Assembly: GCA_950295325.1 (NCBI GenBank)
Contig: OX485804.1
Coordinates: 12,586,001-12,650,000 of the forward strand
Length of the DNA stretch: 64,000 nt
Reading direction: 5' to 3'
DNA from: Polytrichum commune
Lineage: Eukaryota > Streptophyta > Polytrichopsida > Polytrichales > Polytrichaceae
The stretch's first letter is position 1. Every line of letters begins with the position of its first letter. Positions 42,198 to 64,000 of the stretch are shown in pieces. A program made the position numbers and the translations under genes. Below the pieces are notes generated by a model. The model was not told the origin of the DNA and did no database searches. It saw only the letters and a list, made by a program, of their open reading frames with translations.

Positions 42198-42935
42198 GGG
42201 GCCATTCACGGTTGGGGTACTACTTTTGGCCGTCTAACGGAAAACATACTTTTTTGGATAACTTCACATGCTTGGTATGCTTAGATTTGTATTATGAAGC
42301 ATATTTTGGATCATACCTACATTTCATACTCCATATCGAGTACACTGACAAAGTTAATTTAGAAGGAATAGGGTCATCTAAGATATCATTTTGATTCCTT
42401 AAAGGACATTCAGGAGTGTTGTCTTAATTGTTCACCTTAGGATCAAGGAATGAAAAGGACAACAAGAATCAATCGAAACGATCCCAAATTTTTTCCTCAC
42501 ACTCATCGTTCAAGTGTGTACCAATAGAACCAAATATGTGTTGAATAGCAATTGCCCAACTTTACATGTGGCACCAAACATGTCCAAATATACATATACT
42601 CACGGCCACACGTAAAAGGAACGTCTAGTATTAGAATTGGACAAAAAAATTTATATGAATGGACACATGACACTTTTACCAAGGTACCAAGATACATAAC
42701 AGGAAATAATTGACCACCAATGCACACCTAAATAACAAAAAAATGCCACTGATGTGGCCTAGGGTTTAGGGTTTAGGGTTTAGGGTGATTATTAAATAAT
42801 AATAAAAATCTTTCTTGATAAAGCTTATGAACTATCTACTTATTTATGTAAAATTTATTGATCAAATAATAATAAATCATGATAAAAACCAAGATCAATG
42901 TGACAAAGTCCTTAAGATGGGGATATTAACTAAAA
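42198..42935 (-). mobile_element. TIR element, copy 1 (one end lost)
   Basis: Its intact terminus reads GGCCATTCACGGTTGGGGTA, continuing CTACTTTTGG. The body matches, in reverse orientation, the element at 54857-55671 over about 700 bp (for instance AAATTTTTTCCTCACA, TTTATTGATCAAATAAT). The far terminus is missing at about 42935. A telomere-like run replaces about 80 bp found in the other copy. Confidence 0.75.
42759..42786. repeat. Telomere-like (TTTAGGG)n run
   Basis: Three to four TTTAGGG units, the plant telomere sequence, embedded in TIR element copy 1. Confidence 0.9.
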
Positions 42936-43125
42936 TGAGACAAATGGTCCGCTCATTTTAATGTGGGGAACGTGATGGGAACGCAATGATTGCTTTTTTC
43001 TATACAAGAGAATACCCGTAGAGGTTTTAGGGACCACAAACCAAGTGTTCCAATGAAACCGGGCAAACAATCAATTGTAATATGGAGGATCCCATCAAGG
43101 AAGACAAAAGGATTGTGCCTACACT

Positions 43126-43411: not shown

Positions 43412-46400
43412 CTAGAGGTCTTCTGTTGGTACCCCATCCTCGAAAGTATCTCCATCAGTCATTTTCTCACCTCTAGTGCATCGATCTAAATTATCCTTTG
43501 CGAAAAGAATTTGCCGAGCTGGGATGAGAACATTGTCATCGGACGCATTCCTTTGTCTTGCCCATGATGCCACAACACAATCTAGGGATTGATGTTGTGG
43601 TGCATAGTCCTTGAGCCTCGTCCATCGAAAAGATTTTGCCATGTCCCATTCCTCATAACGTTCGTCTAAGGTCTTCTTGTTCCTTTGGCCAAGGACCAGT
43701 ATATAATAGACAATCTCAATGGAACGAGGATTAGGACCGATATGTGCCAAATTCGGCTCAGAAATCACTCGTCCCATCCACACTGGATTAGGACAATCCT
43801 CACTAGGACGTAGTAACACATAATGGCCAACCCGTATATGTGCGCCGGGACGGAAGGTCTCAACAGGTCGAGAACTAGCTGGCCCCACGTAAGCATAATC
43901 AGTGATGTTTTCCTCAAGTAGATGCACATTATCCACATGGAGGGTTGGTGCAATGGAGAACCGTGTAGCTGGCCAGAATGGCTCGCTAAGTTCAGATGGA
44001 GTTGGGAGTAAAGGTTGATCCATAGCCGCAAGCACATTCTCCCAATATAAAATTGTTGGTGCAATGGACTCCATATATTGACCCGAACTATCTTGATCTG
44101 CCGTATCCTTCCAATACTTAATAAAACCTTGCACCCCAAGCTTTATGTTCACGGAATCTTTCATCTCCCTTTTTGGAACGGGACGGGGGCACCCTACAAA
44201 AACAAACATACAATGAGCTCGGAGCAATACCACGGACTAACTGCCCACGGGTGATCACCCGTGGGCCACATACTTCACACCATGTATTTTCTAGTGCACT
44301 TCCAAAGCAATACAAACAAGGGACCCACTAACCTGTTGGGACCATGGTCTTCTTTGTGATAGGGTCCACCTTCCAAAGAGCAATTCCTCCATCAGGCACC
44401 CAACTTAGATCTGTACAATACACTTTGTACTGCATCAATGGCACTCCTTGAGGATCTACATAAAAACGGAATTGGTGCGCCTTGGAATGCCCAATAAGTC
44501 GATCTTGACCATACTCATTGTAGTATCCCTTCACCCATTCCTTGAAATCTGCAACCTCGTGGATTAAGGACGGGACAATAGTGGGTTCCCCAGCAGCCAT
44601 GAACGATGCCATGAGGTCTGGGAGTGTATGGCAATCCTCAATCTTCAGCCTTTGTCCAAACCTCCCAAACATTGCATCCACATCCTCATGCGTATGTCCA
44701 ACAATAAGGAAAGACACCCTGACTTCCCGAAAAATTCCCTTTGCAGTCAAAGCTAACCAAAACAACATGTTGTATTTTGATTTGTTGTCCTTCGCACAAT
44801 TGTCCATTTGAACAAGGAGGAGGGGTGGCAAACCTGTAGGAGGAATACTTGCGGGCGGTGGCAAGGGAAGTACTCCTGAACACTTCTCTACACCAACCAC
44901 CAATGCGTCGTGTAAAGGATCACCTATGGACGAAATCGGAATGTGTCTACTAGAGCAAACAGGTTCTACCTCAAGTTGACAAAGCAACTTCATCATCGAG
45001 GTGATAGTGAAGTTGGCATCGGATGGGTACATATCAAGGACATAATGCGCATAATTCACATCTGAGTGACCATATGCAATCATCCCCGCAATGGATATGG
45101 GGAATCGCTCGTATTTGTCAACACGTTTGTTTTTGTGCGCGAAAACGGGAAGAGCCGTTTTCCCATAATCCATTTTGTCATGGATTATACAAAGCACCTC
45201 ATTGGGAGCATACTTTGACAAAATCCTATCTTTATAGTAACTGTTTCTATGAGCCTCCTGCAATGTTAGATGACGAAGGCTAGCACTTGAGATGGCCAAG
45301 TGACCAGCTGTGTTCTTTGTGTGTATTCGCAACAAATCCTTGAATGCTGCACAAGTTCCACAACGCGAGAAGTTGTCGCCGGGGCTCTTTATAACATACT
45401 GCTTGAAATGTTGTCGATGTAGGCGGCTGAAGGTGGACGTAGAGATAGGCGTGTACCCTAGGTCTCCGTCCAAGTTGTTCACTTCCTGCAATAGGTTGCA
45501 CCACGTTGTTCCCACAGGGAGCATCTCCGTCCCTATCTTCTCACCACTTGGAAGAGTCCGAGTCATATGGGGCATGGCGTCCGCCCTACCCTCAACCAAT
45601 ACTCCAAGGGTGGCTCGTGCTTGCACTGTATTCGCCCGTGGTTTTCTAGTTCCTGTATTTCCATGATCTCGAGATCTAACCCCCATCAAGCTTTCAGCCT
45701 TGTTCCTATTATATTGTGCCCTTGATATCATATAGATGTTCATCCATGCTCGAGTGCATATTGTTCTCCCTTCCAACTGCACCATTTCGCGTCCGTTGTG
45801 CTCATGTTTCTGGATCGATTGGAACACCGACAGGGCTATGAGCTTCCGAGCATTGAATGGCAATGCGAAGTAGTGTTCCCGAATACTCATCAACAAAGGC
45901 CTTGGGAATACCTGGCAACAATGCTCGGAACAACAATCCACCGCTGATAACATCCGCGCATGCTCCTCAGTGGCTCCCCAAATTTTCTTCCCAGGTGGCC
46001 AAGGTGCACACATCCTCACAGTGTTGTATTGGCGTTTTCCAAGCAAGCGCCGATGACTTTGAACTTCGCAGGTCGCATTATGATGGACCAACAATATTTC
46101 CGCTAATGTATGTCCTTCAAATTTGGTGAGTGAAAGTGGCCATCGGTGCAGCGTATTCTTCCAATCCCGCGAAATAACATTGTCAGTTGGGTTCAAGATA
46201 ATAACTCCAACATCCTCAGCCCCTAGGATGCTATTGTCAACACAATCCAATGGATTTGTGTTGCAAATCAATCCATCACACAAAGCATGGCCCTCATCAT
46301 CAAAGAGCACAACGGCCTTCCCCTTCAAGTCCGTCCTCGACAGTCCAATGTAATGTGGAATCTGAACATCGATATCAAAGTATGTCAACACACATTGACC

Positions 46401-46929
46401 AGAAGCTCACGGGTGTTCACCCGTGGGGGACAACATTGAAATCTCAGCAAAATATTTACATTCATATAGGGGTGAGCTCTACACCTCACTTCACACAACT
46501 CAAGTGAAGTATGTGTTACTTATCATATCCCCATTGGGAGAATGACCCTTATTACCAGTTTCCACAAATAACCACACATATGTAGGGAGAACTAAAATAC
46601 AAATCATGAACTGCCACGGGTGAACACCCGTGGGGGCTTCCATGCTGACATCTACTACTAGAAAGTTTGTCACACACATGAGCATATGGATAACTTCTAT
46701 TCTGACATATGCTAGGATAACCGAAATAAAAACCATAAGCTCCCACGGGTGAACACCCGTGGGGGCCCCAAACCGGGTGCCAGCGTCTCCCACGGGTGAA
46801 CACCCGTGGCAGACTGGCCGTACAGGAGGGGTACGGCCAGAGTGTTGTCACGGGTGCACCCGTGGGAAAGTGGATGCACATTGGGGTTATAAAACCAACC
46901 TCTTCATTCATGTGAGGCACGCTCTCCAT
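43412..46929 (-). CDS. DUF7869-like putative DDE transposase, intron-containing
   Basis: The main exon, about 46406-44334, encodes roughly 690 residues. Rough positions: IIHDKMD (about 402-408), LLLVQMDNCAKDN (about 525-536) and LIVGHTHEDVDAMFGRF (about 562-578). These are the signature blocks of DUF7869 proteins, and their D...D...E spacing fits an RNase H/DDE fold; activity is inferred. Cysteine clusters (CCSEHCC, CGTC) precede them. A 139-bp intron, 44194-44333, with donor ACAG|GTTAGT and acceptor TTTGTAG, leads to exon 44193-43412, where VGHYVLLRPSEDCPNPVWMG suggests a BAH/SH3-like segment. A first exon at 46929-46896 (MESVPHMNEEV, Kozak-like AACCATGG) fits the frame if the weak donor GTTTTA is used; this is tentative. 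The frame is intact throughout. A KDZ-type transposase is an alternative family. Confidence 0.65.
44244..44265. repeat. Intronic 22-bp palindrome
   Basis: Perfect palindrome with arms CCCACGGGTG and centre AT, inside the 139-bp intron of the transposase-like gene. Confidence 0.9.
46408..46866. repeat. Cluster of five palindromes in the presumed leader intron
   Basis: Copies at 46408-46425, 46614-46634, 46742-46763, 46789-46810 and 46849-46866. Each has the arm (CC)CACGGGTG, a centre of AA, TT or none, and the complementary arm. The copy at 46408 directly borders the presumed splice acceptor of the main exon. Spacing is irregular here, unlike in the right-hand gene. Confidence 0.85.
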
Positions 46930-53695: not shown

Positions 53696-54856
53696 TCCTG
53701 TTGTTCATTTTTAGTGTGGCCCACTGTAATATTATTGTACTTTCCTTGCCTTACATTGGATTTTCATCCAAATATGCAGATGAAAAACCCACAGTAATGG
53801 AAACCCCTATTTTGAAGGGTATGCTATGTTATATTGCAGATTAACAACAACACCGTAAGTGTCGGCACATGACACTGGGTGTTTGAGTGCACTTATTAAA
53901 ATCTTGACATGACATGCCATTAGTATGCTTAAGGATGTATTCCTCTTAAATATTAAAATGAAACACATGACACTTGCCAATAGTGTGCTTAAGTATCTTA
54001 CCCTTGGGAATGTAGTGGGAATAAACAAAACCGTTTAATATGAACATGTATGTTATCACTATATCACAGTAGACAATATAGCAATCATCCATGACAATGT
54101 TGCATCACAAGTTGCTAACATGAGAAGGTCAATGGATGAACTCATCCATCATCATGACATGGCTCTAAGTTATACCTCATGTAGCGTTCACATATGAAGA
54201 GATATAGTGATAGCAAACAACCATCTTGATTTGCCCCCACCAATGGCCAATGACCAATGGGCCCCTCATGTATGACATTCCATAATAATACTAACAAATC
54301 AACTACTCAAAAGTGATGGAGGAATGATCAACTCATGGTTCATGAGATGATAAATGTATCACTTGAATAACAACAATAGATTACTCCATTGTGACACTTT
54401 GAAGCAATCTACATGCTTAAAGGATCAATCCAACGGACAAGAATGGTAGGGGTTTCAATTGTCACTACTTTGGAGTGGTTATACTAAGCCTCGGGATCCC
54501 TCAACATTATTAGAGAGTGAACATGTCTCCATTGTCATGGTCCATGTCAATATTGATACTTTTATGGAAACAAGATGGGTCTCACAAATGTGTTGGAAAC
54601 GCTCACACTATTCTATTGTATATCGAATTGGGGAAGAATATGTCAAGAGCCTCCATGACGATGCTAGATAAGTTTGAGAGTACAACCTGAGCTACACGGC
54701 ATCTAGGTAAATTCATCCAACGTGGATCAATTGGCTCAATCTTCTATTTTTATGAAAGAATAATATTGTCTCAGAGTGAATATGAAATATATGAAGTAAT
54801 TGGAGGTCTTTTTTTTACCTTAAGAGAATTATTAAAGATGGTTTTATATGTTAGGA
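53696..54856. other. Gene-free stretch
   Basis: Short open frames (54459-54671, 54766-54960) show no recognisable family. The second runs into the TIR element. Confidence 0.45.
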
Positions 54857-55671
54857 GGGGCTATTCACGATTGGGGTACTACTTTTGGGACAAAGAAATT
54901 AAGGACTATGTTGCATTGGATCTCGGCGTTTATTACGATTTACTATTATTTGATCAATAAAATTTAAATAGATAAGTAGATAGGTCATAGGACTTGTCAA
55001 GAAAGATATTACTTATTATTAAATAATCACCAATAATAGATAAATCCTTTATGAAATGAGTAGATAGGTCAAAGGACTTGTAAAGAGGTCATATGACTTG
55101 TTTGGGCCACATCAATAACAATTTCATTATTGAAGTGAACATCGGAGGTGAATTATTACCTGTTTTCCATCCTAGTACCTTGGTGTAAGTTTCATGTATC
55201 CATCCATATATATATATATGTTCAATTCTAATACTAAACGTTCCTTTTTCATGTAGCCATGTTGTTGTGTATTGTTGGCCATGTTTGGTGTCATATGTAA
55301 AGCTATACAATTGGTATGCAATACATTTTTAGTTCTATTGGTACACAATCGAATGATAATTGTGAGGAAAAAAATTTGGGATCATTTCAATTAATCTTTG
55401 TTGTCCTTGTCATTCATTGATCCTAAGGTCAACAATTTTGACAACACCCATGGATGTCCATTAAGGAATCAAAATGATATCTTTGATAACCCTATTCCTT
55501 GTAAATTATCTTTGTCGGTGCACTCAATATGGAATATTAAATGTAGGTATGATTCAAAATATGCTCCACAATACAAATCTAAGCACACCAACTATGTAAA
55601 GTTATCTAATTTTAATTAGTCCTTTAACCGTTAGACACCCAAAAGTAGTACCCCAACCGTGAATGCACCTC
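54857..55671 (+). mobile_element. TIR element, copy 2 (both ends present, about 815 bp)
   Basis: The left terminus is GGGGCTATTCACGATTGGGG and the right terminus, on the minus strand, is AGGTGCATTCACGGTTGGGG; both continue TACTACTTTTGGG. No coding region survives, so it is non-autonomous. I could not settle the target duplication or the superfamily. It lies in reverse orientation to copy 1 at 42198. Confidence 0.75.
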
Positions 55672-56939
55672 AAGGTCAAAAAGATCAAAAGTTTTTCCTT
55701 CATACATAAATTATCACTTACATTGACAACTAATGTCATTCTGGCAATCAACGAACATGTCATCTCTAAGATTGTGAACATTTTGATGTAGTTCCTTTGC
55801 AAATAGTGCACATGACACTAATAAACACCATAAAAGGCACGGCAAGTTTGCCTAATTACATCTCTTAAATGATCATTACTATGCGATTCTTGGTGCAATG
55901 GCCACTTATTCTTGTAGAGGTTCCACCGCATTAATTGCCCCAACATTTTTGCCTTGGAAGATGACAAATTGTGCCTCTTTTGCCCATACTAGTGCAGAAA
56001 CCAAAGCAAGATGTGAGCAATGGCCAACCCTTGGTTACATCAACAAGCTTACAAATAAGTCAAGTTAGTGAGAGACCTTGTATGTGGACCACTCGGTGGT
56101 GTGTCGTCGAACTCGTGCCCATTTTGGAGTGTTGCTCAAGTTGAGATTATTGTATAGGACAAAGTCTTCGCAACCTCAACTAACTTATTATTTTGCAATG
56201 GCTTTCACAACCAAAGATTGCATTGGCTTTCCAAAGTGTGAATTAGAATGAAGGAAGGGTTGTGGTGTATATCGGGAGTTCTATCAATTTGTAATATATT
56301 TTAGCTCATCTATTTGCAAAAAAAACAAGAAAACGGTAGAACCGTGAGGCTCTGTCCTTTACTATGAAAGACTACAATTGTAGATGTCCATTTTGCTCGT
56401 GCCAATCCATGGTTACTTACTATACCAAACATTTCTTGAATTTTGTGCACCTCCTTCTCAAATGCAGGTCAAGGATTGAAGCTATTCATTTATCACCCGA
56501 AATTTTCAAAATAAATAATCAACATCTGCCGAAATAACTATACTTAACTAGATTTCTTTCAATGCCTTTTAGGGAGCAATTATAGTTTATATATATATAT
56601 AAACTATAATTAACATCCACATTAAATAAAGTGGGCCAAAAATAACAAGAATAAGTAATGTCCAAATGTGAACGCAAAGTGGTTAGGAAATTTGCTCTTG
56701 AAACGAAGAAGTTGATGCATAGTCTTTGTCCTACAGACAGAGCCAATAAAAAATAGAAAAGAAATTTCATAAAGAAGACAGGTCAGCATGAAGTCTGGCT
56801 TTATTGATACAAGCATTACTACACACTAATTTGCGTCTAGGACCGGGGATCCATGTAGAAACATATATTGCCCCTCCACTTGCTCTAACATTCACACGAT
56901 CAAGGAAGACAACCAGCACCTTGTGTACACTATCATGGC
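55672..56939. other. Gene-free stretch
   Basis: No supported gene. A small AT palindrome (TATAGTTTATATATATATAT-type, about 56580-56610) is present. Confidence 0.5.
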
Positions 56940-57256
56940 ACTACACTAAATAGGATATTTAGGGTTTGATTATATTTAATGTTGATACCACCCTACTTTG
57001 CTCAACACTAATTTTCAATTTTTTGACAATTAGTGTTAGAAGATATGTTGGATTTCTCCTTTTATCATTGTTATTTCCTTTTTTTTCATAGCCTTACTAA
57101 CACTAAATTCAAACTTGTAACTTCCACATATTATCATAGTTGATATTTAGTGTTTTTGTTTATATTTAATGTTATTTATTTTCATAAGGTTACTGATGTT
57201 TAGTGTATGCGTTCATATTCAATGTACTGAACACTAAATATCCTTTTTAGTGTAGT
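56940..57256. mobile_element. Small MITE with ACTACACTAAA termini
   Basis: The left end is ACTACACTAAATAGGATATT and the right end on the minus strand is ACTACACTAAAAAGGATATT; both continue TAG. The interior also repeats TATTTAGTGTT-like phrases. Same terminal motif as the element at 16691-17280. Confidence 0.7.
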
Positions 57257-58384
57257 TATTGTAAACCGAAGATAAACTACAAACAAGGGAGAGGTTTGGA
57301 AACCTTTGTCAAACTGCACCTAATTTAGGGGTTGTTTACACCATGGACCATGAAGTCATTCAAGGCCCTGTAAAGCTTGTGATTGGTTGTTGAACTCGTC
57401 CCGGGACCACTTCGGTTTACAACAAGGAAAAAAAAATGTCAAGGTGATCATGGAGTTCGAGGTCCCCAAAGGACATATTTTAAGGCCTAAATTATCCATT
57501 GACATGGTCCAACGGGTTTTGCGGTGGGAGAGGCAAAAGAGGTGCTCTCCATAGAAAAAGGCAATGGCCCATGGCAAAGAAATGTTGTTATAATAACTTT
57601 TTTAATGGTTTTTTTTGGGGGGGGAGAGAAGATGAAGACAAGAGAAGACAAGAGAATTGTCAATTTTGATTTCTTTTTCTTTTTCTTTTCAAAAGTGCTC
57701 TTTTGGGCATATATTTAGAAAATCAGCACATTCGTTTTTTGGTCCACATTCAATTTACACATAGTGAGGGGCCCAAAGGCTTTGGATATTGTTTTTTTAA
57801 GAAATTGGACCATGGAAAAAAAATGCCATCTTCCATGCTCCGACTTCATGGTCCATGGTGTAAACCGGCCCTAACTTAGCCAAAACCTCTAGTAGATGAT
57901 TGCAATACTTTGCCACACAACATTCGAGCAAACATGAGTTATGGTTATGGAGATGCAATCTTAATATTGCTCGAGATTCATGCGGTGCTTGATGTGGCCC
58001 ACTCGTTGGCCACCTCCTTTGTCATCCTCTCAATATATATGTTATAAGGCGATGATGATAAGGATGATAAGGATGATAAATATATGTTATATTTAAAATT
58101 TTGAATTCTTGGAACTCTAATGGTTCATAGTCCAAGAGAAAACAAGAGAACAATTGAACTTGAGTTCATGGGCTATGGTGAAAGTGGGCCTATTATGGAT
58201 GCTCACGACTTCATCAATAAGGAATTGGAAATCATAGCTATGCTTGATGTCAAGCGCGATTGAGCATCTTACACGCATATTATGAGAATGTGCAATTGAC
58301 TTTGGTATGTTATAATAGGAAGCTATGTTACAGAGTATAATGTTAAAGTATGGAATCTATGTTATAATATGAATCTATTTTAAG
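57257..58384. other. Gene-free stretch
   Basis: No supported gene. A TTTTCTTTTTC tract and a GGGGGGGG run occur near 57617-57700. Confidence 0.5.
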
Positions 58385-58999: not shown

Positions 59000-59976
59000 G
59001 ATTTTCTCCATCATGTCCCTTCGTACTAATGAGGCATTATGTGTCATGCGACTTCCACCCGCTCGTCATTATGGCAACATGTCGCACCCTCTCTCTCCCT
59101 CTCTCTCATTCTCATCTCCCAATTCTTTCTCTCTTTCCTTCACCACTCTCCACATTTCTGGAATGTTGTTGCAAAACTCTTCTCCCACAATTCTGAACTT
59201 GCTTTGCTTCTCTTCATTCTCTTCTCTTCATTCAATTATTGTACTCCTTGTCTTGATTCTCTTCTCAAGAAAACCCTGGAATAGATTCAGTGTGCATTTT
59301 CTTGGAATATGTGATAGTTTCTTGGTGAGCATAGTTGTTTCTTGCTCAATCTAGCATGTGGTAGTGGTGAGATGTGGAGAAGAGGAAGGCGACCCTGAAG
59401 CAAGTAGAGGGAAGTTCCAATCATGAAGATTTGAGAACCCACAAGCTTGTAAGTTTCTGAACTCTTTCAATGTTTTGCACTCTCTTTCACTCTTTTGCTT
59501 TCTCTTTCAATTTCATTCTTCCTCTTGCTTGCATTGTAATGCTTGTGGCTATAAGTTGTCTGGCAGTGGTGAATCAGAGCTAAATGATGAATGTCTGGAA
59601 TGTCTTGACACTTGTTGCATAAGATACTAAATTTCTGGTGCATTAGGGTTTGAATTGCTTGAAGAATTTCAAACCCAAAAATACTAGAGATTTGCATGTG
59701 AGTTGTGTGATGCTTGGGTGTGAAGAGTTGATTGAAATGTGAGAAGAATGTTCAAATCAGAATGCAAGATGAATGACAAGAGGTTATGTTCATAAAAATG
59801 TGAGACCAGAATGCAAGAAAAATGTGAGACCAGAATTTACCTGTTGAGATGTTTAAGAGTATGAATGTATTGCACATGTAGGCATAGTTTGAAACAAATG
59901 CTCTTGTGTTTTGTTTTGTGCAGGAAACCACATTCGTGTTGAAAGAATCTTGACATGGTCTGACCAAAGAACCATG
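59000..59976 (+). other. Probable 5' leader exons of the H3-mimic gene
   Basis: A CT-rich stretch (about 59090-59150), as seen in many plant leaders, is followed by a donor at 59449 (AAGCTT|GTAAGT). An exon at 59924-59976 is bordered by TTTTGTGCAG and ATG|GTGAGT. The next acceptor is at about 61193 (CATTCAG) just before the coding ATG at 61232. The assignment rests on splice-site appearance only; no TATA box was found. Confidence 0.4.
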
Positions 59977-60052
59977 GTGAGTGTCCATTACATAAATCCC
60001 AGTTTTTTCTGTTAGTGTGAAAGCGGTTATCTGGAAGTGGATATTTGAAGTG

Positions 60053-60448
60053 CCCACGGGTGAACACCCGTGGGACTCTCCCCTCATATGGTTGAATATG
60101 CCCACGGGTGTTCACCCGTGGGCTTTTGCACTCACCAGGTGGAGAGGCCCACGGGTGTTCACCCGTGGGCCTCTCCCCCATCTGGTTGAATGTGCCCACG
60201 GGTGTTCACCCGTGGGCCTCTCCCCCATCTGGTTGGATGTGCCCACGGGTGTTCACTCGTGGGCCTCCCCCCATCTGGTTGAATGTGCCCACGGGTGTTC
60301 ACCTGTGGGCCTCCCCCCATCTGGTTGAATGTGCCCACGGGTGTTCACCCGTGGGCCTCCCCCCATCTGGTTGAATGTGCCCACTGGTGTTCACCCGTGG
60401 GCATTTGCACTCACCAGGTGGAGAGTCCCACGGGTGAACACCCGTGGG
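60053..60448. repeat. Array of nine 22-bp palindromes, period 46-48 bp
   Basis: Palindromes start at 60053, 60101, 60148, 60195, 60242, 60288, 60334, 60380 and 60427. Each has arm CCCACGGGTG, centre TT or AA, and the complementary arm. Centres are AA in the outermost copies (60053, 60427) and TT in the seven between, so the outer copies are inverted relative to the inner ones. The spacers are also related, mostly CCTCTCCCCCATCTGGTTGA. The array lies in the presumed leader intron of the H3-mimic gene. It is not a CRISPR array, because the spacers are not unique. Confidence 0.9.
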
Positions 60449-60948
60449 CAGTGGTGATTCTTCACAAGGTCCCTAACATGTCCAGGGACATGTTCATAAA
60501 GCAAAAGGTCAGTGGACGTGTTCGTAGAAAATGAACCGGTTTTTGGACGTGCTTGATATCACTGTGGACGGGTTCTAAAAATGAAAATTCTTTTGATACA
60601 TTTTCCTAGAAAGATGGTCTAAATATCTGTTACATTATGTCATATATGACATGTGAATATAAGCATAATGCAATCAACCCAGTAAAACCCAATCAAAATA
60701 TCAATCTTGAAGTGCTTGATTCACCTGCATACATTAATTTTTCAACCACACAATTTAGAATGGGGTGGACTGAAAAGCTGAGAATCGGTAGAAAAAGACA
60801 AAAAACAGATGAACATTAAAGGCATAATTTGTCAAGATCCTATTGTTTCCAAGTGCAACGAGTTTCGGGACGGGTTGAGATTTTTTTTGCCTTTCAATTC
60901 AAGGTTTTTGGACGTGGACGAGCTAAAACTTTGTGAAAAATCAGCTCT

Positions 60949-61052
60949 CCCGTGGGCCTCTCCCCTCATCTGGTTGAAAGTGCCCACGGGTGTTCACCCG
61001 TGGGCCTTTGCACTCACCTGGTTAGGAGTGCCCACAGGTGTTCACCCGTGAG
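60949..61052. repeat. Second palindrome group in the leader intron
   Basis: A half copy at about 60949-60957, a full copy at 60983-61004 and a copy with two changes at 61031-61052, again about 48 bp apart and with the same spacer text. Confidence 0.85.
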
Positions 61053-61231
61053 CCTTTGCACTCACCTGGGTGGGAGATTTTGTTTGATAAATGTCTTTTG
61101 GATTTTTTATGTAGACATATTTGGTGTGTCTTTGTAAACATTTGAAGGTTTTAGACATAAACATGTGATAGACAGTTGGTGTTTCATTCAGGTACATAGA
61201 GGTGTCGAAGTGTTCTCTCATTTGAATTGAG

Positions 61232-62913
61232 ATGGCAAAAACAAAGCAAACAACCCGTAAAGGTATAACCACAATACCTATGTGCACGTCAATGTTATAT
61301 GAGTTATAGAATCCGTGATAATATTGGGCTATGCTAAGTACTAACACGTGCATTGTTTTCTGCAGTATCGGGAGGTGTGGGCAGACGGGTGAATCACGAT
61401 GTTGAAGTTTTTGGCCCAGATTTGCAATGGTTCATGCAGTATAGTGGTTTCGGAGAGATAACAGTGCTCTCGCTTTACACGAGGACTGGGCCCAATTCCA
61501 CATGGAGAAAGTACATGAAGGCAAAACATGTACTGGACATTCAAGCGGATGGGAGCCGGGTATTGATAATGTGCAAGTCGTCTGAACGGAAGAAGGACTT
61601 CAAGGTTGCAGCACTCGTGGAGACTTTCTCATATGCGGATGTGAATGAAGAGCTCAACAATGAGGGAGAGAACATCTGCTTATTGAACGGTGATTTCCTC
61701 ACCTATTGTATAGTATATTGCGAGACCAATGTGCACACGAAGTCCGTGGAGGAGAGATCAGTAATGATCGAGCATGACTACAAGTCTGCTCTAGCACGAG
61801 TGAAGGTTATAGTTGAGGAGGCAAAGGCGGCAAGGTTGGAAGCATCTTTGAAGAAGAAGGAAATCCGCGATGGCAAGAGGAAGGATCATGCTGATGTCCG
61901 TGCCACCTCGTCTAGGAAGAAGACGAGACCCGATAAAGGACAACCAGTGTTTGTCCTTGAAACTCCCGTCCAGGATGTTGTCTCCAAGAGAGGCAAGAAG
62001 AAAACATCTGAGGATAGTCCATTTCTTGACCTCGAGAAGATTCCCAAGCGATCAATGCATGGGCCTCCAGACAAATCGGTTGGAGACAGGTTGATGGATA
62101 TGGAGTTGTTCAAGAATAAGTACCAAAGGGTGTGGATATTCGGTGAAGGCGTGAATGGATATGTCAATATTGATAATATAAAGCGGGGAGATGCAGGGTA
62201 TAATTGCCGACCCATATCCGAGGCGCATTTGAAGGAGATCAAGATATGGTTATTCAACTATGCCTTCATTCTGAAGATTCATCCCAACTTCTTGACAATC
62301 GTTCCTTCGGATAGGCGAACTAAACCATTCAGTTTTGAGGAGGTGAAGGACAAATCGTTCCACGTGGTAAATGGACAGCACACGTTAGCAGCCTGTGTGG
62401 AGTATGTGAATGACCCCAGCAACACAGATGAGGTGAAGAGGTTTTTCTCAAAATGGCCTTGTAATGTGGTCTGGGCCCCTGAAGGTGATGACGACCCTCT
62501 GTTCCACCTCTCTGGCGTTCTGAACCTGGATAGTGAGTACAGGAAGCACTTTCCGTCATTTACGGAGTGCATTGAGCACGCTAGGAAGACTTGGATTAGG
62601 CGAGGAAGACCTGACCGAACTGTACGCGAGAAGGCCAGCAATATGGAAGCTTTTAAGAAGTGGAAGGTATATTTCAAACCTGTGACTTTTGAATTTCTCA
62701 TTTCTGTGACTCCCACGGGTGTTCACCCATGGGAGACTATCATGTTGTTGGTAATTGATAGAAATACATGGAGGTTTTTTTTTATAGAGATTGATACATT
62801 GCCGGTGTTTGATACAAACATTCATTACGTGCGTCATGTGGACGTTCCGCGTGGAGAAGGAGACCAACCTGATCATGAAGCACGTCTTGCATGTATTGAG
62901 TCATGACATATGA
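61232..62913 (+). CDS. Histone H3-tail mimic fused to a ParB/DGQHR-like protein
   Basis: Exon 1 (61232-61262, upstream in-frame TGA) encodes MAKTKQTTRK. The intron (donor AAAG|GTATAA, acceptor TTCTGCAG at 61365) is in phase and exon 2 continues VSGGVGRR. The H3 tail is M-ARTKQTARKSTGGKAPRK, so Lys4, Gln5, Arg8 and Lys9 equivalents are kept. Exon 2 (61366-62666) has an unrecognised N-terminal domain, a charged, possibly coiled-coil and nuclear-signal-like middle (about 140-230), then RPISEAHLKEIK (about 292), RRTKPFSFEE and VVNGQHTLAA (about 344-353), which resembles the NGQH/DGQH motif of ParB- and DGQHR-type folds. A 121-bp intron (62667-62787) leads to exon 3, in phase, which meets TGA at 62911; the protein would have 485 residues. 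The role is unknown. Chromatin targeting by tail mimicry is inferred. Confidence 0.65.
62712..62733. repeat. Intronic 22-bp palindrome with one change
   Basis: Arm CCCACGGGTG, centre TT, then CACCCATGGG. It is inside the 121-bp second intron, mirroring the single copy in the short intron of the left gene. Confidence 0.9.
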
Positions 62914-63225
62914 AGGAAGTGGGAGCGGATATTCAAGGATTACGAGAGTGGTGACTATGTAGATCCGAAGACCGGAATTCTTATGAAAGAGACAAAGGGG
63001 TTTAAGTCGAAGAAGGTGGTCAAGAACGACCTGAAACAATTTCGGGGTTTGACAGAGATGGAGCTCGACATGGCAGCGAATCAAATCCTCACCACCAGAG
63101 ATGGAGAGGAGCACCTTCGACATACCTTGAAGACTCTGCGCGATTGGGCGATGAATAGGAAAAAGAAGAATGAAACTTATATCGCGATGGCACAGTATTG
63201 TAGAGCCCACCCATCGAAGCCCTGA
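62914..63225 (+). other. Open frame continuing after the in-frame TGA
   Basis: The frame of exon 3 stays open for 103 codons beyond TGA 62911-62913 (WERIFKDYESGDYVDPKTG, then TLKTLRDWAMNRKKK) and ends at TGA 63223. The continuation looks protein-coding, so the TGA is either a recent nonsense change, perhaps CGA to TGA, or the C-terminal part belongs to another splice form. Confidence 0.55.
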
Positions 63226-63572: not shown

Positions 63573-64000
63573 TGAGGCCAGTAGAAACAGGGTCCAGTTT
63601 GAGAATGGAAGAGGCGGGCCGCCCCTTAAATATAGGGCATGTGGCCACATTTAGGGGATGAATGTAGTTACAAATGAATAGGTAACCAATAGGATACGAA
63701 GGGATATGTAAGTAGGAAATACATATTAGACGGAATAGATTTAGAAAATTTGGATTAAGACTTTCAAATCAGGCTATTTTTAGATACATGGCTAAATATA
63801 GCCGAAGCTAACATTTACAAAAATCCACAAATACCTAGATGTGAAACACTATAAAAGGAGGCCACTTGAGGGCCCTAATACACGTCATTTTGCATATCAA
63901 AATTCTACATGAGTGTCCGAGCTTGCAAAGCTTGTAGATAGAGAATCGGCACCCTCGGTGCATTAAGTCTAGGGATCGGAATTGGCACCCTCGGTGCACG
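63573..64000 (+). promoter_or_regulatory. Promoter-like sequence at the window edge
   Basis: CTATAAAAGGAGGCCAC at about 63850 is a strong TATA box. About 95 bases on, TCGGCACCCTCGGTGCA occurs at about 63946 and, starting TTGG instead of TCGG, again at about 63979. This layout is common in retrotransposon LTRs, but the element continues beyond the window, so a host promoter is also possible. Confidence 0.35.

Follow-up and report, generated by a model that had tools for sequence, protein, structure and literature searches.

Viruses and a small number of host proteins are known to mimic histones, and some plant transposons encode anti-silencing proteins. On the host side, Chen et al. 2021 reportedly described 'H3 N-terminal mimicry' in proteins, VRK1 among them, that are not histones but start with Ala, Arg2 and Lys4 in an H3-like order. 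The transposon protein described here starts in a similar manner but differs from the VRK1-type mimics in that its H3-like N-terminus (hereafter, the tail) matches H3 at 9 of 9 residues in most copies, K9 included, and in that the carrier is a transposon protein. As a large DNA transposon with a potential epigenetic cargo gene, the element also recalls the KDZ transposons, which carry TET/JBP genes, but its transposase family is different, namely DUF7869. Likewise, the VANDAL transposons of Arabidopsis are Mutator-like, whereas the present element has a DUF7869 open reading frame (ORF) and not a Mutator-like transposase.

Among viruses, mimics of the H3 tail are represented by influenza NS1, adenovirus protein VII and SARS-CoV-2 ORF8, and the motifs involved, as outlined in the source, are short (ARKS, ARSK-like and AKKRS) (PMC10208167); for ORF8, the claim of mimicry has been disputed (PMC10833455). 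As in these cases, a protein of a parasite copies a motif of the H3 tail, but compared with the viral mimics as outlined there, the transposon match is N-terminal and spans K4 to K9. For anti-silencing proteins encoded by transposons, the precedent is set by the VANC proteins of the VANDAL transposons, whose targets often form tandem repeats (PMC5735166). The VANC proteins and the protein described here are both accessory proteins of plant DNA transposons, and in both cases the element contains repeated noncoding motifs; unlike the present case, however, the abstract of PMC5735166 makes no mention of a histone tail. Among the matches listed in a search of the titles and abstract openings of the open-access literature, there was no report of a transposon-encoded histone mimic.

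Results

An H3-like start in a two-exon gene

The window (the whole stretch of 64,000 nucleotides of Polytrichum commune DNA analyzed here) contains, on the plus strand, a short coding exon (61232-61262) that encodes MAKTKQTTRK and is separated by intron 1 (61263-61365, with GT at 61263 and AG at 61364-61365) from coding exon 2 (61366-62666), which runs from V-SGG... to ...KKWK and includes the NGQHT motif. The intron lies inside codon 10 (mature numbering), and the spliced reading is MAKTKQTTRK-VSGGVGRRVNHD. The initial annotation had proposed this junction and had noted the likeness of the resulting N-terminus to that of histone H3; as far as can be judged from sequence, the junction holds, with GT and AG at the intron borders not only in the window but in all 40 close copies that we found in the genome. 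Aligned with H3 (ARTKQTARKSTGG), the window start is identical at 9 of 13 positions, or matches at 11 of 13 if R2K and T11S are counted as conservative. Over H3 residues 1-9 it matches at seven positions; the next best value among the 3115 ATG-initiated unspliced frames on both strands is four, reached in two frames, and random peptides of the same composition attained at most six matches in 5 million draws.

The window copy is the poorest match to H3 residues 1-9 among the 39 unshifted close copies, and its H3-like stretch (AKTKQTTRK) reads as degenerate. The later part of the gene is also broken: the remnant of exon 3 (62820-63196) carries an in-frame TGA and is split by an insertion of approximately 2.35 kb, which starts at 63197 and continues to the window end at 64000, the match to the element ending at 63196 and resuming approximately 2.35 kb further. 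The other copies are a better basis for judging the motif.

Upstream of the start codon, a probable 5' untranslated part of exon 1 (61192-61231, plus strand) follows an acceptor-like ATTCAG and contains an in-frame TGA (61223-61225). This TGA, which starts 9 bases upstream of the ATG, is shared by 39 of the 40 close copies (the exception is L062), so that the protein in this frame starts at this ATG or later. The ATTCAG precedes exon 1 in 20 of the 22 copies L009-L030 (L009 has ATTTAG, and L019 differs), which makes an intron in the leader likely. With an upstream exon predicted to end near 59975 in ...ACCATG|GTGAGT, a short additional reading frame could arise that terminates ahead of the start codon in exon 1.

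The tail among genomic copies

A DNA search with window positions 61200-61460 produced 49 candidates, of which 40 places were scored, a lower bound on the number of close copies. N-termini were compared for all 40, that is, the window, 22 copies designated L009-L030 and 17 designated L059-L075. When exon 2 of L028 was used as a protein query, at least 100 matches were obtained, some of which are pieces of a single copy.

The likeness to H3 turned out to be stronger than first claimed. The first ten residues are MARTKQTARK, exact over H3 residues 1-9, in 26 of the 40 close copies, MARTKQTTRK in 11, MARTKQIARK in one and MAKTKQTTRK in the window copy alone; the remaining copy has a frameshift. 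Thus, 37 copies start with MARTKQT(A/T)RK, and the pattern M-A-R-x-K is present, as MARTK, in 38 (all except the window copy, with MAKTK, and the frameshifted one). In a subfamily that is 83% identical in DNA and accounts for six of the 40 copies, all six have the exact MARTKQTARK. Position 10 is V in all 40 copies, and position 14 is V, A, L or M but never K.

The initial annotation held that homologues without likeness to H3 would make the resemblance a coincidence; the relatives within this genome, diverged as well as close, keep the motif. Four diverged copies were sampled: L078 (82% identical in exon 2) and L077 (72%) have MARTKQTARK, L076 (74%) has MARTKQTSRK, and L079 (62%), which is decayed and has lost the acceptor, has MARTKQTTRK. 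All four share the M-A-R-x-K start, and in all four the tail is followed by GG. At least 12 other diverged copies lie outside this sample, as do approximately 25 distant relatives of the NGQHT region at 23-28% identity among the matches listed (for example, G000:C2:50176228-50176857), most of which are without stops, with open frames of up to 706 amino acids.

Selection on the tail and the accessory protein

The variation in the tail is concentrated in silent positions. Across residues A1-G13 in the 40 copies, variation common to at least two copies was found at 1 of 26 first and second codon positions (A7T) and at 6 of 13 third positions; the corresponding figures are 15 of 82 intron positions and 6 of 32 leader positions. 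The excess at third positions (6 of 7) corresponds to a one-sided binomial probability of 0.007, with the sites and the copies not independent of one another. This codon-position pattern argues against a non-coding exon 1. When L077 is compared with L028, five of the ten exon 1 codons differ, all silently; at random, 20 of 81 single changes at these codons would leave the residue as it is. Among the six exon 1 types compared, all codon differences outside position 7, which tolerates T or S, are silent. The tail residues thus seem to be kept by natural selection.

The protein as a whole is subject to purifying selection. For exons 1 and 2 of L030 and L028, dS is 0.52 and dN is 0.082 (omega of 0.16), and the other pairs with L030 show omega values of 0.15-0.18 at dS of about 0.5; L029 compared with two close copies yields 0.24 and 0.28. 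Omega values of 0.4-0.75, such as decay of the copies would produce, were obtained for several close pairs. Within the first 18 codons, there are six silent and two replacement changes between L030 and L028, and three silent and four replacement changes between L029 and L028; all the replacements are at position 7 or past the H3-like stretch. Exon 2 is open in 17 of the 23 copies examined.

A TIR DNA transposon

The attribution of the H3-like start to a protein of a mobile element, likewise made in the initial annotation, is upheld: the gene lies inside an element of approximately 25 kb that we classify as a class II DNA transposon with terminal inverted repeats (TIRs). In the window, the element, in plus orientation, occupies 42917-64000 and extends past the window end; it is interrupted, the match to a complete copy (elem18) running from 42917 to 63196 and resuming downstream in L055. 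Two copies, on C1 and C2, are 99.0% identical over 16.5 kb and 98.3% identical over 8.7 kb, approximately 25 kb in total, and outside this element pair there is no match longer than 400 bases. The TIRs are approximately 23 bp long, ATGGGGATATTAACTAAAATGAG (left repeat, 42917-42939, plus strand) and its inverse, the L028 copy showing variation at a single base. The same ends are found in other copies with 4-bp target duplications, which are perfect in nine of the ten copies with both ends read; the tenth, L018, lacks a duplication (AGCT/GCCT), and the 5' end of an eleventh copy, L017, was not located.

The tail belongs to a plus-strand accessory gene, whereas the main ORF is on the minus strand. 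The latter (44331-46406, 692 amino acids) is open in the window copy, and its equivalent in L035 matches Pfam PF25273 (DUF7869) with an E-value of 2.1e-46; in a Pfam scan at E-values up to 1, DUF7869 was the only family detected, with neither a KDZ nor a Mutator-like transposase. The DUF7869 ORF in combination with the terminal repeats makes this ORF the likely transposase. Apart from the place of the ORF in the element, this assignment draws partly on motifs that we take to be those of a transposase. A second minus-strand ORF (43415-44236, 274 amino acids), without a Pfam match for its L035 equivalent, is perhaps the C-terminal exon of the transposase.

The noncoding sequence of the element contains near-perfect, partly tandem palindromes of 20-22 bp, which in the window are found at 44245, at 46614-46790 and, in the accessory gene's leader, at 60051-61060, where CCACGGGTGWWCACCCGTGG and close variants of it form an array. 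Exact CCACGGGTGWWCACCCGTGG occurs 11 times in the window, in each case at or after 42917 and within the element. Two complete copies contain 16 and 18 exact occurrences, compared to none in 13.6 and 7.5 kb of flanking sequence. In the sequence examined, the palindromes are confined to the element. By analogy with the VANC targets, they are candidate binding sites and may be bound by a protein of the element.

Two observations concern the structure and the surroundings of the element. The 3.9 kb at window positions 54199-58079 have no match longer than 150 bases to the 2.5 kb in the complete copy, and L010 and L011 share at least the last 0.7 kb of this stretch; the sequence common to these copies indicates that structural subfamilies exist. 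One transposon insertion is directly adjoined by apparently LINE-like ORFs with an RNase H domain (L031:2884-5591).

Discussion

The findings presented here are, in our judgment, best accommodated by a model that we consider fairly probable: the accessory protein of a TIR transposon of approximately 25 kb has an N-terminus that passes for the H3 tail and that sequesters or attracts chromatin factors at the element, which thereby stays active. The host readers and writers of H3K4 and H3K9 would be the most likely partners, the tail being an anti-silencing or recruitment device. Removal of the initiator methionine is expected from Ala at position 2 and, as in H3, would leave A1-R2-T3-K4-Q5-T6-A7-R8-K9. 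The readers of H3 grip the free Ala1, Arg2 and Lys4, and the enzymes and readers of K9 grip R8-K9; A1, R2, K4, R8 and K9 are all kept in most copies. Accordingly, the host proteins that recognize the free end of H3, namely readers and erasers of K4 as well as methyltransferases and readers of K9, could bind or modify the tail. Since V stands in place of S10, and V, A, L or M in place of K14, the switches for the release of readers are missing, and the tail would resemble an H3 tail for which phosphorylation of S10 is not available as a means of release. The remainder of the protein would most likely act at the palindrome arrays of the element itself, whereas the tail would either soak up silencing factors or present an activating signal akin to methylated K4, such that the element stays expressed.

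A more specific version of this model, which we put forward tentatively, is a decoy that consists of the complete K4-K9 end of H3 without the S10 and K14 switches and is delivered to the element's own palindrome arrays, so that the element would itself determine its chromatin state without a nucleosome; it would be the first histone-tail mimic of a transposon. Should the tail prove functional, then a transposon escapes silencing, or turns it to its own use, by copying precisely those residues with which the host marks it. A short peptide, ARTKQTARKVSGG, with the natural variants R2K, A7T, A7S and S10V, makes the idea directly testable.

Several other explanations of the tail have to be considered. 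Mobile elements of other kinds are known to select their targets via chromatin readers, and the tail could similarly link the complex that carries out transposition to readers of H3K4 or H3K9, thereby choosing the target chromatin. The transposon context and the 4-bp target duplications fit such steering of insertion, but the tail sits on a separate accessory gene and not on the DUF7869 ORF, and we regard this explanation as unlikely. We are similarly skeptical of the possibility that the tail is a borrowed import signal, recognized by importins and used only for entry into the nucleus. The N-terminus is indeed basic, and the tails of H3 and H4 have been described as import signals, as outlined in a report on Kap123 (PMC5677370). 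However, a simple basic signal does not require that T3, Q5 and T6 are kept through the turnover of silent codon positions, and other basic stretches (SRKKTR and KRGKKK) are present in the same protein.

The tail could also be a functionless fragment of a host H3 gene. Residues 1-9 are indeed the same as in the host H3, and the tail exon differs from host H3 genes at 6-9 of 30 nucleotides, depending on the pair compared. Nevertheless, the turnover at silent positions without loss of the residues speaks for selection following capture, if capture occurred, and an intron at codon 10 is absent from all three host H3 genes that we compared (one is intronless, one has an intron after codon 23 and one after approximately codon 53), so that passive capture appears improbable. 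The same comparison speaks against the direct acquisition of a host H3 exon along with the intron; the tail could have arisen by capture without the intron or by convergence, the nucleotide differences from host H3 being compatible with either. The host histone genes are located elsewhere in the genome. The least plausible explanation, which we reject, is a chance resemblance in a basic N-terminus. The window copy alone, with seven of nine matches, and the 14 of 40 copies that are not exact could be cited in its favor; however, the match is exact in 26 of the 40 close and two of the four diverged copies, the changes outside position 7 among six exon 1 types are only silent, and the composition-based probability of a match at all nine residues is approximately 1.6e-12 per start. 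Thus, both close and diverged relatives keep the motif to an extent that coincidence hardly explains.

Returning to the protein that carries the putative mimic, its remaining exons offer few leads from known families. Exons 2-4 contain no Pfam family above the cut-off, the histone fold (PF00125) included, and exons 2-3 contain no NCBIfam domain above the cut-off; a PHROGs search without a cut-off returned only matches with E-values of 0.09-0.17, and no match to PDB sequences was found at E-values up to 10. Weak matches to DUF4504 (E-value of 0.18) and RBD_SIN1 (E-value of 0.05) were set aside. The fold predictions, with a mean pLDDT of approximately 36, were unusable and were discarded; given these models and the lack of a Pfam family in exons 2-4, DNA binding by the accessory protein is a guess. 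The NGQHT stretch presumably resembles ParB/DGQHR proteins. A viral origin was considered and rejected, with no relative of L028 exon 2 in IMG/VR and none of window exon 2 among phage records.

The later exons can be followed in the other copies. Exon 3 ends in ...HIVAH, followed by a GTAAGT donor; among 20 nine-kb copies searched with one pattern, it is open in eight and has stops or frameshifts in seven, the ends not being found in five. In most copies in which its start was found, exon 4 forms an acidic open frame of approximately 600 residues. A downstream ORF (L031:366-1190) contains an NIF phosphatase-like domain (Pfam PF03031, E-value of 3.8e-11), with DVNGIL in the place where, we presume, the usual catalytic motif would stand. 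Within the acidic exon 4 (for example, L028:6901-8778), there is a second H3-like stretch, TARKKMKAPRRGR (compare H3 TARKSTGGKAPRK), which may be a chance likeness within a basic linker; a text pattern detects it in 15 of the 22 copies searched, two of which, L029 and L030, are too short to reach the site.
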